From Candidatus Heimdallarchaeota archaeon (GTDB lineage Archaea > Asgardarchaeota > Heimdallarchaeia > Heimdallarchaeales > Kariarchaeaceae), in the NCBI GenBank assembly GCA_026702845.1, contig JADCLS010000001.1, positions 248,001 to 312,000 of the forward strand: 64,000 bases of DNA, written 5' to 3'. A program made the translations under genes and the position numbers. Positions 1,650-9,733 of the stretch are shown here, one piece after another (position 1 is the first letter of the stretch; each line of letters opens with the position of its first letter). The notes below the pieces were generated by a model, which worked only from the letters and a program-made list of their open reading frames with translations, was not told the origin of the DNA and made no database searches.

Positions 1650-3443
1650 TTAATATTTTCTTCGTCTAGCCGTAATGACAGCTATTCCAATTCCAAGAAC
1701 AGTGAATACTAAGTTGATTGGGGAATCAGTAGTTGTTGTAGGTGGGATATATTCAGAGAGCACTTCTATCTCAGTACTGAAGGAATTACCTGCCTTATCA
1801 AAAACGGTCAATGTAATGATGAAATATCCACCTTTACGATAGACGTGACTAGCTTGATCTAGATCTGTAGCATTTATGGCAATACCATCTCCAAAATCAA
1901 CTTCTGCGAATTTCACACCACTTCCAGTTGCTTCAGCATCTGCAAAGGAGAAGAAAATAGTGATCTTCCCTTTGCTATCCGTTTTTGTTTCACTAGTGGC
2001 AGCGAAGTTTGCTGTTGGTGGAATTGTATCTATATGAAACAGTACTAATACAGTTCGTGATCTGTTTAGATCATTGAATGCAGTAATCCAAGCAGAATGA
2101 TTTCCATTAATTATCGTTTCATTACCAAATGATACGGTGCCATTGATTTTGTCAGTTATATCAATTTCAGCTGTATAATTTGAGGTGAGTGTTGCATTGA
2201 GTATTTCTCCACGGATAGTACTAAATTTGAACTCTATTGTTGCATTCTGCTTATTCAAAATGGTATAATTACCACTTAGAATATCTATAGTTGGTCTGGA
2301 ATCTTGAATAGTAATCCGAGCGGGTACTGATTCATTATAGATACCAGTCTTGAATTCAACAAATGCTTGTATTTCTACGACTTGTGAAACATTAAAAGTC
2401 CCAAAATCATACTGATAAACATGTTCTGTAGTGTTGAAATTATTTGAATCATTGTTCAAACTGTAACTAATATTTGCAGGGAATGCATTGATAGTCCAGT
2501 TAGTTGCCTCAGCATTATCGCTGTCATTATTGAATGATCTGTAACGTACATAGAATGCATCATCATCAGTTTGGTTATAGGCTGTAACGTTGAGTTTGAT
2601 ATGATCGATATCAGTATACTGTGAGGTAATTTCTGAGAAGGCCTTGGTAAAGGAGAAGCCATTAGTGAGTATGTGAACTTTTTCAGTTTCAGGGTTAATA
2701 GCTTCACGTTCCCAACCATATTCCGTATAGGCTGAGAAGAATACCATTCTTTGGGTCAGTGTATAATTGTACTCATAAGTATTGATATTTCCTGATCTGC
2801 TAACATTACTCATGATTATTTTTGTGGCAATAGAGCTGAAAGGCTCAGTAGCATTATTCCCTAAAGCAAGGGTCAAGGTAAGATTATCATGGGGATCAAC
2901 AACAGTATATCTGATCGTTACCTCCTTACCTATTGGAGCGTAATATTGATCATTTCGAGCTTCTGCTCCAAGAATAGTTGAGAATTTTGGATACTGAGGA
3001 CCATCAATAATCCAGAGTGGATGTGCATCCAACCCATCAAATCGATCAAATTCTTCATTTGTACCGTTATCAAAGGATACACTCCACGCATAGGCATAGA
3101 ACTCCGTATATGAGCTGACATTAATATCCACTGAATAGGTGCTTTTTCCTTGAAAACTTGATACTTTGGTTAAGTTCATTGCAGTGTTGATATTTTCTGT
3201 TAAATTACTGCCAGTTCCCAGAAGTTTAACACCATCCACATCGAACCTATCTGCAGTGTAAGTGATGGTTATTGTTTCGTTAATATTGTAAAAGAAACTA
3301 CCTGCTGGTGTTCCATCAGGAGTAATAGAGACGAACTCAGCTGCAGGAACTTCTCCAGCAGTCTGAGCATAAATTGGTGTCATGGGTAAGCTACTTAGAC
3401 ACAACATAGCTAATAGCAGTACAAACTTTAACTTCATTATCAC
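1650..3443 (-). CDS. Large secreted surface protein with PKD-like domain and C-terminal membrane anchor
   Basis: The 597 residues begin with a signal peptide (about 1-27, ending near IYAQT). A long beta-rich ectodomain follows, full of N-glycosylation sequons (many NxT/NxS), and then a PKD-like Ig fold at about 490-565 (VDFGDG and YFIITLTVFDKAGN). The end is a short Thr linker (PTTTTDSP), one membrane helix and a basic RRRKY tail. That tripartite tail resembles the CTERM-type anchoring or sorting signals described for archaeal surface proteins. I infer a cell-envelope or S-layer-associated role. No enzymatic motif was found. It lies 50 bp upstream of the subtilase on the same strand, so it could be a partner or a substrate. 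Confidence 0.75.
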   Translation of the reverse strand: MIMKLKFVLLLAMLCLSSLPMTPIYAQTAGEVPAAEFVSITPDGTPAGSFFYNINETITITYTADRFDVDGVKLLGTGSNLTENINTAMNLTKVSSFQGKSTYSVDINVSSYTEFYAYAWSVSFDNGTNEEFDRFDGLDAHPLWIIDGPQYPKFSTILGAEARNDQYYAPIGKEVTIRYTVVDPHDNLTLTLALGNNATEPFSSIATKIIMSNVSRSGNINTYEYNYTLTQRMVFFSAYTEYGWEREAINPETEKVHILTNGFSFTKAFSEITSQYTDIDHIKLNVTAYNQTDDDAFYVRYRSFNNDSDNAEATNWTINAFPANISYSLNNDSNNFNTTEHVYQYDFGTFNVSQVVEIQAFVEFKTGIYNESVPARITIQDSRPTIDILSGNYTILNKQNATIEFKFSTIRGEILNATLTSNYTAEIDITDKINGTVSFGNETIINGNHSAWITAFNDLNRSRTVLVLFHIDTIPPTANFAATSETKTDSKGKITIFFSFADAEATGSGVKFAEVDFGDGIAINATDLDQASHVYRKGGYFIITLTVFDKAGNSFSTEIEVLSEYIPPTTTTDSPINLVFTVLGIGIAVITARRRKY

Positions 3444-3534: not shown

Positions 3535-5622
3535 CTATTGGGTTAATAGTAGTGGCTGTAATGCATCTTCATTGATCTGGTTTCTGCAAATTGGACAGAA
3601 TTTCTTAATTTTTAGCCATTCACGTATGTGGGTATCATGAGATGGATTGGAACAATGTGGACAGATTACTATCTTTTCAGAGCTGTTCATTTTACTTCTA
3701 CATACACTACATTCAGGTGGAGGGTTGAAACACTCTGGGCAAGGTTCTCTGAAATTTGTTAACAGAGTGCCACATTCAAAACATTTTGGCTTCTCCTTGA
3801 ATTTGTACAATCCTCTTGTCCTAATGAATTTCTTATCCTTTATGTATCCTTGATAATATCCAAAACCTATCAAGTATGAGATATCCAAATTTAACTCATC
3901 AAATGTCCAATCAAGAATTTTCTGTAGTTTGGATAATTTGATACGGTGAACTACGATTTTCTCAAGATTTAGTATCAACAACCTAAGATCATGATCCAAT
4001 GTTTCAATAGAATCTATTGGGATATTTTCATAAAATTCAAGTATTGTGAATACTTGTTTATGGGTTTTTATTCTAAGTAATCCAGAACCACTCAGAAAAT
4101 ATACCCGTCTATATATTTCAATATTTGATAAATTGAAGATATCACGAAGTTTCTTAAGTGGTACTTCCTTATTTGTTACCAAATAGCAGAATATCTGTTG
4201 ATCTACTAGATCAAGATTATTAAGCTGTATCAGAGGAGGAATTCTCGGTTGAGATTTCATGGTTAAAAATGCGTTTGAGATATCTGGATCTCCGATATTT
4301 CTTGATATGAATGCCAGTGCTCGTTCCTGAGTTTGTACTTTATTTAATTCCAATAGGGCTCCGAGTTTAGCCATGGATACCTTTCCTTCTGAGATAAGTG
4401 CTCCTATAGTTATTCTCTCCCAATCCTCAAAGGTGACATATTCCTGAGATATGGCCCTAGTTGTTTTCAAATTGAAGAATTTCATTGAAATTAATGAACC
4501 ATCAATGAAACCGTGAAGATATAGGTCAATAATCCCCTTCATCACATTATGATAGGGGATTTCCATTCTATCAGAAATTTCTGATAGATAGATTTTCTTT
4601 TTGGTTTGAATTAATCCAAGTAATGACCTATAGGAAATAAGAGAATTTCGATCTATCTCTTCAATTGTTTTATCTGTATCAAAATTCGGATTAGCTATCG
4701 GAATTAATTGATCTCGTTCATTCATTCTGAATTCAAATTCACGAGTACCATTTACTAGTGATACTATTCTTAAGACCTCACTTATTTTCATTTTCATAAA
4801 ATTTGCGATCTCTTTAAGATTAATTCCTCTTTGTAAACAACTGAGGCCTATTATCATCCTTTCCTCATTACTCATCATGCTTAGTACTCTCTGATGAAAA
4901 GGAATAAGAAAATTCTTGATTTTCACTTGTATTTCAAATTTTTTGAGAATACCTGAAGATATATCAAAACTGCAAAGTATTAGGTCAGAAAGTATTAATT
5001 CTACAAGGTTGATTTGAATAATATGCTCAGGTAATTCCAGTGCATCAGCAATGCCATTTAGTGAAACCGATTCTTTTAACCTGACATATCCTACTAGTTG
5101 CTTTTCAATATCCCCTATTTCATCCTCAGATTTTTTCTCTAACTTATAATACACGATAACATTGAACGTTTCATTATCATTGAATTCAACTGAAATAACT
5201 CCCCAAGCAATGAACCTAGCAATATATTGTACTATTGCCTCATAATTAAGAGAGAATGCTTGTTCGAGTTCTGATAATGAGACAATATATCTAGCCTTGA
5301 TATATGCAAGGAGTGTCAATTCTTCTAGGTCCATTCGGGGCGTTTGCTGTAATATGCTATAATTCAATTTTTTCAAGATAAATGAAGTACGCGTGAATTC
5401 ACCCTCACAAAAATCACTCTGCATGATTCTTCCCAATTTCTCCTCCACATCGAGTCTAGGCAGTTCAAGTACCTGTTCCAACAACTTGATTTTAACATCC
5501 TTAACAAAAAGAATGATTCCAATGAGGGTGGCAATATCCTTATCTGATAAATCTCCCATGTATGGTTTAACATGGTTGATGGGATCGATTCCTTCCTCTT
5601 TTATTGGTATGAATTGTGACAA
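3535..5622 (-). CDS. Tandem winged-helix repeat protein with C-terminal zinc ribbon and RING-type finger
   Basis: This 695-residue soluble protein has about eight repeats of 50-60 residues, each reading like a winged helix (helix, a turn such as VSLSEL, recognition-like helix, then a wing with a G(V/F)I motif), near residues 25-75, 98-150, 170-225, 250-300, 320-375, 395-445, 470-525 and 540-595. A zinc ribbon (C614, C617, C628, C631) is followed by a cross-brace finger: C638-x2-C641-x12-C654-x2-C657-x4-H662-x2-H665-x10-C676-x2-C679. Its HIREWL and CPICR segments match RING-H2 E2-contact positions. RING fingers are typical of ubiquitin E3 ligases, and stacked winged helices occur in cullins and UFL1. 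I infer a candidate Asgard E3-type scaffold; a transcription-related role is the alternative. A JAMM protease gene lies 3.7 kb away. Confidence 0.6.
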   Translation of the reverse strand: MSQFIPIKEEGIDPINHVKPYMGDLSDKDIATLIGIILFVKDVKIKLLEQVLELPRLDVEEKLGRIMQSDFCEGEFTRTSFILKKLNYSILQQTPRMDLEELTLLAYIKARYIVSLSELEQAFSLNYEAIVQYIARFIAWGVISVEFNDNETFNVIVYYKLEKKSEDEIGDIEKQLVGYVRLKESVSLNGIADALELPEHIIQINLVELILSDLILCSFDISSGILKKFEIQVKIKNFLIPFHQRVLSMMSNEERMIIGLSCLQRGINLKEIANFMKMKISEVLRIVSLVNGTREFEFRMNERDQLIPIANPNFDTDKTIEEIDRNSLISYRSLLGLIQTKKKIYLSEISDRMEIPYHNVMKGIIDLYLHGFIDGSLISMKFFNLKTTRAISQEYVTFEDWERITIGALISEGKVSMAKLGALLELNKVQTQERALAFISRNIGDPDISNAFLTMKSQPRIPPLIQLNNLDLVDQQIFCYLVTNKEVPLKKLRDIFNLSNIEIYRRVYFLSGSGLLRIKTHKQVFTILEFYENIPIDSIETLDHDLRLLILNLEKIVVHRIKLSKLQKILDWTFDELNLDISYLIGFGYYQGYIKDKKFIRTRGLYKFKEKPKCFECGTLLTNFREPCPECFNPPPECSVCRSKMNSSEKIVICPHCSNPSHDTHIREWLKIKKFCPICRNQINEDALQPLLLTQ

Positions 5623-5697
5623 TTTACTACCTCAGGTCTAACTAAGCTTGATCATTCAATCCTTTTATAGATTTCAGAATGGAAATACATCATTTCT

Positions 5698-6306
5698 TCA
5701 AATTTGTTTTAAAAATTCCTTGTGGATACGACTATCATTTGTTAATTCAGGATGGAATGTGGAGGCTAAGATATTACCTTGTTTTATAAGAACTGGGTGA
5801 TTTTGAAAAGTAAGAAGTGTCTCAACATTATCTCCTACTGATTTAATAATAGGTGCACGAATGAAAACTGCTGGGAGCGGTTCTTCACCAAAATACTCCG
5901 ATAGTAAATGTGTAGAAAATGAGTCCTTTTGTCTACCATAACCATTTCTAAGGATGTTAATATCTAAAAATGGGAATGCACCTTCTGATTCAGGAGATTC
6001 TTCGTTTCTCCTCACTGATTTTGCCATGAGTATTGCACCTGCACAAGTACCAAATGCAGGCAGACCACCTTCCAATTTTGATCTCACAGCTTGCAGCATG
6101 CCATTTTTTCTTCCAATGAGTATCATTGCTGTACTCTCACCACCAGGCATAACAATTCCATCGATTTTATCTAATTCCTCTGGTAACACAATGTGAAGAA
6201 TCTCAATTTCCATCCTCAGATCTGCAGCAGCTCTACGTAAGGCTTGCTCATGCTCCACTATTGCGCCTTGTATACCAAGTATTCCAATGGTCTTCATCAA
6301 TCTCAT
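5698..6306 (-). CDS. pdxT: Pyridoxal 5'-phosphate synthase glutaminase subunit PdxT
   Basis: This subunit hydrolyses glutamine and channels ammonia to PdxS for direct PLP synthesis from ribose 5-phosphate and glyceraldehyde 3-phosphate. At 202 residues it has the family length. Visible motifs are the N-terminal GILGIQGA strand, PGGESTA (oxyanion loop), the nucleophile Cys88 in FGTCAGAILMA, and the His185/Glu187 pair in FHPEL near the C-terminus, which complete the class I glutaminase triad. The ATG at 6306 is used here; Met4 (6297) is an equally good start. The partner pdxS is on the same strand upstream, separated by a roadblock-like gene. Identity is firm. Confidence 0.96.
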   Translation of the reverse strand: MRLMKTIGILGIQGAIVEHEQALRRAAADLRMEIEILHIVLPEELDKIDGIVMPGGESTAMILIGRKNGMLQAVRSKLEGGLPAFGTCAGAILMAKSVRRNEESPESEGAFPFLDINILRNGYGRQKDSFSTHLLSEYFGEEPLPAVFIRAPIIKSVGDNVETLLTFQNHPVLIKQGNILASTFHPELTNDSRIHKEFLKQI

Positions 6307-6354: not shown

Positions 6355-6837
6355 TCAGATATTATCCAATTTGCTTAGTGCATCTAAGAATGCATCACCA
6401 GTAAGTTCCTCTATGGACATGGCCTCCACAACTGTTTCTGCTTCATGTTCATAATGCTCTTCACTATCAAGGTCAAATAATTTAATCAATTCCATATCCA
6501 ATTGCTTGTTAATGGCCTGTGAAATGCCTAATGAGCAAATTGTTTTTATCGTATTAGATTGAACCGCTATATTGAGTTTACGTTCAAGCTCTTTTTGATC
6601 AATTCCGCTATTTGAATCGAATGAAAAGATGATAATATTATCTGTAAGTGGTTTGAAATATATCATCTGTTTTTTCATGATAATAGAGTTTAGCTCATCT
6701 CCGAGCTCCTTTGAGAAGGCAATGATAGCACCTGAAAGAGCACTGAATAATACGTCATCCAATCCATCATCCTTCACATAGGACTTGTGATATATGGTGA
6801 TGCCATCATTTGAGATGATAGTGATATGACGCAGCAT
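6355..6837 (-). CDS. Small roadblock/longin-like domain protein
   Basis: This 160-residue soluble protein reads as an alpha/beta domain of the roadblock/longin type. An N-terminal strand pair (HITIISNDGITIYHKSY) leads to a helix with small residues (LFSALSGAIIAFSKEL), then two further strands (MIYFKPL, NIIIFSFD) and a C-terminal helix, followed by an acidic tail. Domains of this kind dimerise and bind or regulate small GTPases, and they are expanded in Asgard archaea. The fold call comes from pattern alone and no catalytic residues are expected. It sits between pdxS (179 bp upstream) and pdxT (48 bp downstream) on the same strand, so it is probably co-transcribed with the PLP genes. No GTPase gene is in the window. 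Confidence 0.5.
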   Translation of the reverse strand: MLRHITIISNDGITIYHKSYVKDDGLDDVLFSALSGAIIAFSKELGDELNSIIMKKQMIYFKPLTDNIIIFSFDSNSGIDQKELERKLNIAVQSNTIKTICSLGISQAINKQLDMELIKLFDLDSEEHYEHEAETVVEAMSIEELTGDAFLDALSKLDNI

Positions 6838-9337: not shown

Positions 9338-9733
9338 TCAGATTTTCACAAGTTTTTCTTCCTTTAAGATATCATTATCTATTTTCCAGCACTGAATATC
9401 CTGTATTTCCATATTATATACAGAAACTATCACATAACTCAGATTTGGCCAAGCCATCTTGAGGTCTGTTTCTGATGGTTTTGAAGGGTGATCTGGATGA
9501 GAGTGGTAAATCCCAACAATTTCTTCATCAGTAAGCTCATCCTCAACTGCAATCAACTCTAAAGGGTCTAGAAGGTATTTTTTTCTTTTATTTGGACTTA
9601 TATTGGTCATGGGTCTCATTCTTACTATTCTATTTGCTTTACCGATGAGTAAGCCACAGCCTTCCTCTGGATAGGAAGAAATAGCATGAGCTAGAATTGT
9701 GTCATGACAAGAGGATGATATAAGAAGATCCAT
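9338..9733 (-). CDS. Stand-alone JAMM/MPN+ metalloprotease
   Basis: This 131-residue single-domain protein has the full JAMM zinc site. Glu23/Glu24 lie in PEEGCGLLIG, and the HSH motif His77-x-His79 is followed by Ser87 and Asp90 in exact HxH-x7-S-x2-D spacing. JAMM enzymes of this size cleave isopeptide or peptide bonds after ubiquitin-like or SAMP-like modifiers, as in Rpn11-like and HvJAMM1-type desamplyases. Related proteins also process sulfur-carrier proteins (Mec type). No E1, E2 or modifier gene is in this window. The RING protein 3.7 kb downstream on the same strand is a possible functional relative, but it is separated by four unrelated genes. Activity is well supported; the substrate is not. 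Confidence 0.88.
   Translation of the reverse strand: MDLLISSSCHDTILAHAISSYPEEGCGLLIGKANRIVRMRPMTNISPNKRKKYLLDPLELIAVEDELTDEEIVGIYHSHPDHPSKPSETDLKMAWPNLSYVIVSVYNMEIQDIQCWKIDNDILKEEKLVKI

Follow-up and report, generated by a model that had tools for sequence, protein, structure and literature searches.

The sole archaeal E3 ubiquitin ligase that has been reconstituted in the literature examined is a small RING protein from a ubiquitin operon. This protein, srfp of Caldiarchaeum subterraneum, has the same odd RING ligand pattern as the protein described below, and its mutants I30Q, W58A, and R69A were reported to have lost or impaired ubiquitylation (PMC5654768). Tandem winged helices (WHs) within an E3 scaffold, another feature of the present protein, are found in UFL1/DDRGK1, the UFMylation E3. 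To our knowledge, UFL1 contains no RING; it has a WH that DDRGK1 completes and a segment that binds UFC1. Cullin-RING ligases combine an elongated scaffold having a winged-helix element with a RING that belongs to a separate subunit (RBX1/2), and NSE1, which works within an SMC complex, has two WHs and a C4HC3 spacing that is presumably similar to that of our RING. Zinc ribbons followed by a RING-like fold occur in IFT-A WDR19 and in GATOR2/SEA; these are WD40/coat proteins, in which the ribbon/RING modules mediate assembly. UFL1 and DDRGK1 are said to originate in Asgard archaea (PMC10183829), and E3 activity was reported for NSE1 of SMC5/6, where a winged helix is joined to a C-terminal RING (PMC11335289).

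Here we analysed a gene located in a 64-kb stretch of DNA (the whole stretch is hereafter called the window). A preliminary description of this DNA knew of no archaeal protein with WHs, a zinc ribbon, and a RING in this order; correspondingly, we found no description of an archaeal winged-helix-RING protein in the open-access literature searched. The RING type is already known from srfp, and it is the order of eight WHs, ribbon, and RING that is undescribed in that literature.

Gene, domain architecture, and locus

The gene lies at positions 3535-5622 of the minus strand and encodes a 695-aa protein for which the ORF, the alignment of homologues, and an AlphaFold2 model indicate eight WHs, a zinc ribbon, and an srfp-type RING. 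TTG serves as the start codon, and a Shine-Dalgarno-like GAGGT ends 6 nt upstream. Five homologues (P0003-P0007) share 39-58% identity with the protein and cover 97-100% of the query. Conserved homologues rule out a chance ORF; read on the plus strand, the frame at 3535-5622 is full of stops.

When the whole protein was modelled by AlphaFold2 on a 34-row alignment, mean pLDDT was 89.8 and pTM was 0.69. The predicted model comprises eight WHs in succession, each built of a helix, (a strand), two further helices, and a two-strand wing; a zinc ribbon of C4 type comes next, and the RING finger last. According to the AlphaFold2 secondary structure, the eight units are encoded on the minus strand at 5365-5544 (WH1, residues 27-86), 5152-5328 (WH2, residues 99-157), 4909-5112 (WH3, residues 171-238, with a weak PCI profile match at 173-225), 4699-4869 (WH4, residues 252-308), 4459-4632 (WH5, residues 331-388), 4258-4425 (WH6, residues 400-455), 4033-4209 (WH7, residues 472-530), and 3814-3993 (WH8, residues 544-603). 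The model thus confirmed the eight winged-helix repeats previously proposed from the sequence, a count that applies to the window protein as the only member predicted. Separate modelling of residues 536-695 yielded a pLDDT of 90.9 and a pTM of 0.55. The order of the domains along the protein is sure; their relative orientation in the model is not.

When the whole model was searched with Foldseek, query TM-scores were 0.06-0.13 among the best 50 rows. The best match was a UFL1/DDRGK1 chimera (TM-scores of 0.09-0.21 for the UFL1 rows). In VIA, the rows for the whole model were mainly single WHs, tied with MarR-type regulators. WH8 best matched winged helices of the 26S lid, the COP9 signalosome, TREX-2, and UFL1/DDRGK1, tied within 1 Z of other WHs. 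The PCI profile scored 18.9 bits against the window protein (cut-off, 22), and it matched 26 of the 34 family members at E<=0.01, the best at 1.7e-9.

The zinc ribbon (positions 3730-3783, minus strand; ligands C614, C617, C628, and C631) and the RING finger (3583-3711, minus strand; residues 638-680) are the most conserved part of the protein (0.64, vs 0.45-0.61 for the WHs), and all 12 zinc ligands are invariant in the 34 aligned homologues. The eight RING ligands that had been read from the sequence, C638, C641, C654, C657, H662, H665, C676, and C679, are in place and follow the order C-C-C-C-H-H-C-C, with C-x2-C at the third ligand. A cross-brace is supported by this invariance and by superposition of the RING model on RING E3s, namely TRIM37 (1.1 Å, 55 alignment columns), Rad18 (1.3 Å, 54 columns), and TRAF6 (also 1.3 Å). 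The signature C-x2-C, 8-20, C-x2-C-x4-H-x2-H/C, 8-20, C-x2-C occurs once in the six frames of the 64-kb window. The HIREWL and CPICR segments were likewise present, and their earlier assignment to the E2-contacting segments of a RING-H2 domain held in part. Positions that would face E2 (V640, W669, and P677) and the linchpin R680 are V/I, W, P, and R/K, respectively, in all 34 rows; the RING-H2 (C3H2C3) label was rejected in favour of an srfp-type variant, because the canonical H4 slot (residue 659) is N in 28 rows and H in four, with S and Y in a single row each, while C657 is invariant. I30, W58, and R69 of srfp (PMC5654768) correspond to V640, W669, and R680, with spacings of 28 and 11 residues in srfp and 29 and 11 here.

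When the ribbon-RING profile was compared with solved structures, Arkadia ranked first (5.3e-9), followed by ARK2C and RNF165; WDR19 of IFT-A was matched at 1.1e-6 across both ribbon and RING, and RBX2 gave a weak RING match (3e-3). By fold, ribbon and RING together best matched IFT-A WDR19 and GATOR2/SEA, so that these proteins share the full module with the window protein by both fold and sequence. The region in question (window 3538-3810, residues 605-695) resembles the C-terminal zinc modules of WDR19 and GATOR2, a hint that eukaryotic coat zinc modules and Asgard ribbon-RINGs may have a common origin.

The gene belongs to a same-strand run consisting of pdxS, a longin-like gene, pdxT, the WH-RING gene, a PKD-domain protein gene, and a gene for an S8-protease relative. 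Upstream lies PdxT (SNO; 5698-6306, minus strand) and downstream the PKD-domain protein (1650-3443, minus strand), and both linkages are kept in several related genomes. The small longin-like protein between pdxS and pdxT (6355-6837, minus strand) matched Fuz_longin_1 at E 7e-4, below the cut-off. The WH-RING gene adjoins pdxT in one clade (window 3535-6306) and glnA in another (L044 8047-11514), two genes for glutamine-linked enzymes. Across the 22 stretches compared, the identified near neighbours were pdxS, pdxT, PKD, and S8 genes or glnA; E1, E2, and ubiquitin genes were absent among them, and the family gene was not found clustered with these genes. A JAMM-type gene (Prok-JAB, 2.7e-23) is located 3.7 kb from the family gene at window 9338-9733 on the minus strand. 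At 6 to about 7.5 kb, the distance between JAMM-type and family genes is larger in five loci of the other clade (L044, L046, L047, L048, and L053, the last with a JAB match of 2e-13), and the corresponding gap in L001 contains none. Linkage to JAMM genes, seen in the window and five loci among 22 stretches of which many are short, is weak.

The family and the ubiquitin components of related genomes

Relatives were sought in 227 genomes from the phylum of the closest available relative; the window's own genome is outside this set. We infer that this phylum is Asgard because related genomes carry genes for actin, ubiquitin, E1, and E2 (actin was matched in six of seven tested genomes of the phylum, in four at E<=1.9e-56), which supports the Asgard origin put forward earlier. 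By a profile search in which at most about five candidates per genome were scored, the family was detected in at least 33 of the 227 genomes. Thirty of these had one match over at least 519 of the 695 profile positions, two had copies split over contigs (G011 and G031), and one had a divergent copy (G227); G001 also had another match, a shorter one (254-690). Members are 22-58% identical to the window protein, and their tree has deep branches: the clade stems measure about 0.6-1.2 changes per column. The 34-row alignment leaves aside L006 (which duplicates P0004), the truncated L025, the split G011 and G031 copies, and L055 of G227. Searching 5.8 billion proteins with the single sequence, a 6-row profile, or a 34-row profile returned the same six proteins each time, one of them the window's own, in a word-limited search that scored 7999 candidates per query. 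Scanning genome contigs returned one locus.

The family co-occurs with E2 and ubiquitin, and confinement to genomes without an E2, proposed earlier as a refutation of the ligase reading, is not what was found. E2 (PF00179, E<=1e-4) was found in all 33 family-bearing genomes and in 168 of the 227 overall, and ubiquitin (PF00240, E<=0.001) in 31 of the 33 (G017 and G025 being the exceptions) and in 165 overall. The genomes are related to each other and the counts are not independent; with E2 so widespread in the phylum, co-occurrence is by itself weak evidence. At least 162 of the 227 genomes contained a match to the family profile at E<=1e-5, in most cases to its ribbon-RING part. By hand tally, 160 of the 162 genomes with a listed match had E2 and two (G096 and G141) did not, eight had E2 without a listed match, and 57 had neither, an unlisted genome being counted as having no match.

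The divergent relative in G227 (L055 2906-5035, minus strand) is located near pdxT and pdxS. Having Y in place of W669 and G in place of R680, it lacks both the W and the R/K of the other members, and on these residues may be a pseudo-E3. In the same genomes, five shorter proteins (L086, L087, L089, L091, and L092; 308-509 aa) match the end of the family profile and have a RING, which suggests that the number of WHs may vary among paralogues.

Five Asgard loci were inspected (L067-L071) in which E2 and ubiquitin genes have a small RING gene next to them; its ligand pattern is that of the window RING, and 19-24 of 44 RING residues are identical to those of the window protein. The srfp of Caldiarchaeum and of these clusters have in common with the window RING the ligand order and the I/V, W, and R positions. 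The cluster srfp, however, are open frames of only 81-131 aa, whereas the window protein, encoded by a stand-alone gene, is 695 aa long and has eight WHs and a ribbon in addition. Two ubiquitin loci of the window's own clade, L066 (14.3 kb, G001) and L084 (12.0 kb, G035), contain a ThiF-type E1, ubiquitin, and E2, and neither contains an ORF of at least 60 aa fitting either RING pattern. Read by eye, the G001 E2 has HPN with a Cys after it, and both loop 4 and loop 7 contain prolines; the G001 ubiquitin has GG plus a short tail. Given the lack of a RING in these two loci, E3 function in this clade probably comes from elsewhere.

Proposed function and its alternatives

We propose, with a probability of about 0.68, that the window protein is a single-chain RING-type E3 ubiquitin ligase whose WH array recruits substrate. 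The srfp-type RING would bind E2~ubiquitin via V640, W669, and the P677 loop, and R680 would hold ubiquitin closed for discharge onto a substrate lysine. The zinc ribbon would tie the RING to WH8, and the eight WHs would form an elongated array that binds protein rather than nucleic acid, recruits a substrate or partner complex, and places the substrate lysine near E2. Arguing for a ligase are the ligands and putative E2-facing residues retained by all 34 aligned members of a divergent family, the srfp type of the RING, the co-occurrence with E2 and ubiquitin, and the first-ranking Arkadia-type sequence matches. Other support comes from the reported srfp mutants, altered at equivalent positions; from the E1/ubiquitin/E2 set of G001, with no RING ORF in its 14.3-kb stretch; and from recognition helices that average neutral or negative in seven of the eight WHs. 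Against it stand the near neighbours, which as far as identified are not E1, E2, or ubiquitin genes, the fold of ribbon plus RING, the substitutions in the L055 relative, and the slightly positive charge of whole WHs.

The main alternative is that of a non-catalytic scaffold, in which ribbon and RING would act as an assembly module of the IFT-A WDR19 or GATOR2/SEA style and join the WH rod to a partner. It draws on the best fold matches of the two zinc elements taken together; the RING part, however, has its stronger sequence matches among E3 ligases (5e-9) and lies 1.1 Å from TRIM37, W, P, V/I, and R/K are kept in all 34 divergent homologues, and WD40 is absent among the 22 families that match the window protein up to E 10. 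On balance we regard such a scaffold as rather unlikely. Because the tandem WHs of the model also match TFIIIC, Pol III C82, SelB, and MarR-type regulators, among others, a nucleic-acid-binding regulator with an accessory RING was considered as well. Charges, averaged over 29 rows (several of the 34 are N-terminally short), lend it something: the mean is +2.2 for the WH6 recognition helix and between +0.8 and +3.7 for whole WHs, and the mean net charge of the family is +18.6 (range, -4 to +33). Yet the pI of the window protein is 6.3 and the other seven recognition helices have neutral or negative mean charges, and we hold a regulator of this kind to be very improbable. Little weight is likewise given to a ligase or E2 regulator for some other ubiquitin-like modifier, or to a subunit dependent on a second RING partner: G001 has four E2-like and five ubiquitin-like matches, and family-bearing genomes encode further RING proteins, but the RING is of the same type as the srfp in the five inspected ubiquitin clusters.

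The proposed ligase would be one E3 candidate among several RING proteins per genome. For substrate choice by Asgard ubiquitin systems, the conserved eight-WH RING protein offers a concrete candidate for a substrate-selecting E3, and no RING was seen in the two ubiquitin loci inspected from its clade.

Eukaryotic scaffolds and other Asgard RINGs

The likeness to UFL1 noted earlier stood at the level of fold, with the best Foldseek match of the whole model and a tied best match for WH8, and not as kinship, as other WH proteins also match and PF09743 (UFL1) is absent both among the 22 families matching the window protein up to E 10 and among the best 25 of 29 families matching the 34 members. 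Tandem WHs are shared with UFL1, yet are common to many unrelated proteins. Profile-profile comparison of the family with nine Asgard PF09743 proteins of about 790 aa gave 95.2% (E 2.8e-8, 287 columns); since same-fold repeats match readily and the comparison had no unrelated WH-array control, this match was not used as proof of kinship and the protein was not filed with UFL1. One such Asgard protein of about 790 aa (L056 436-2799, minus strand), like its relatives, matches PCI, UFL1 (1.6e-20), DDRGK, and, weakly, VPS28 but not RING, and PF09743 is matched in 95 of the 227 genomes. IPR018611 we take to be the UFL1 family. This entry was used for E3 in one study (PMC9192718).

The earlier comparison with cullin-RING ligases did not hold as kinship: no cullin family is among the 22 families, and the RING is in the same chain rather than in a separate subunit. 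The NSE1 family is absent among the 22 as well, and NSE1 has far fewer WHs. We assign the window protein to none of UFL1, cullin, and NSE1; any likeness would be at most in the way it works. A link from an Asgard WH-RING protein to the eukaryotic winged-helix E3 scaffolds is possible. Single-chain Asgard scaffolds, with a PCI/UFL1-like WH rod for substrate choice and an integral srfp RING for catalysis, could have preceded UFL1/DDRGK1, NSE1, and perhaps cullins, these being later splits of which some lost or outsourced the RING; we consider this scenario unlikely and offer it as speculation.

The wider Asgard RING repertoire was surveyed in hand-picked strong matches, comprising 28 rows with the srfp pattern (including the duplicate L054/L092, the family member L093, and the five cluster srfp) and eight further fetched loci that this pattern missed, whose RINGs show either a canonical-like C-x-H or a shifted spacing. 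The residue after the last cysteine (C8+1) is R/K in 20 of the 28 and seven of the eight, or 27 of 36 in all. Being frequent among these RINGs, R/K in the family is only moderate evidence; being not obligatory, it implies that Asgard RINGs of srfp type need not all be active. The same kind of RING was seen in Asgard proteins of about 120-1000 aa (L072, L073, L074, L078, L079, L081, L082, and L097-L101), most with a ribbon before the RING and several with what appears by eye to be an N-terminal membrane segment; R/K after the last cysteine is kept in some and lost in others. These sequences suggest that the Asgard RING repertoire is sizeable. A zinc ribbon followed by a RING of canonical-like or shifted ligand spacing was observed in L076, L077, L080, L088, L090, L094, L095, and L096, from the same genomes, so both RING types coexist. 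One Asgard protein (L100 363-1634, plus strand) has two srfp-type RINGs in tandem.
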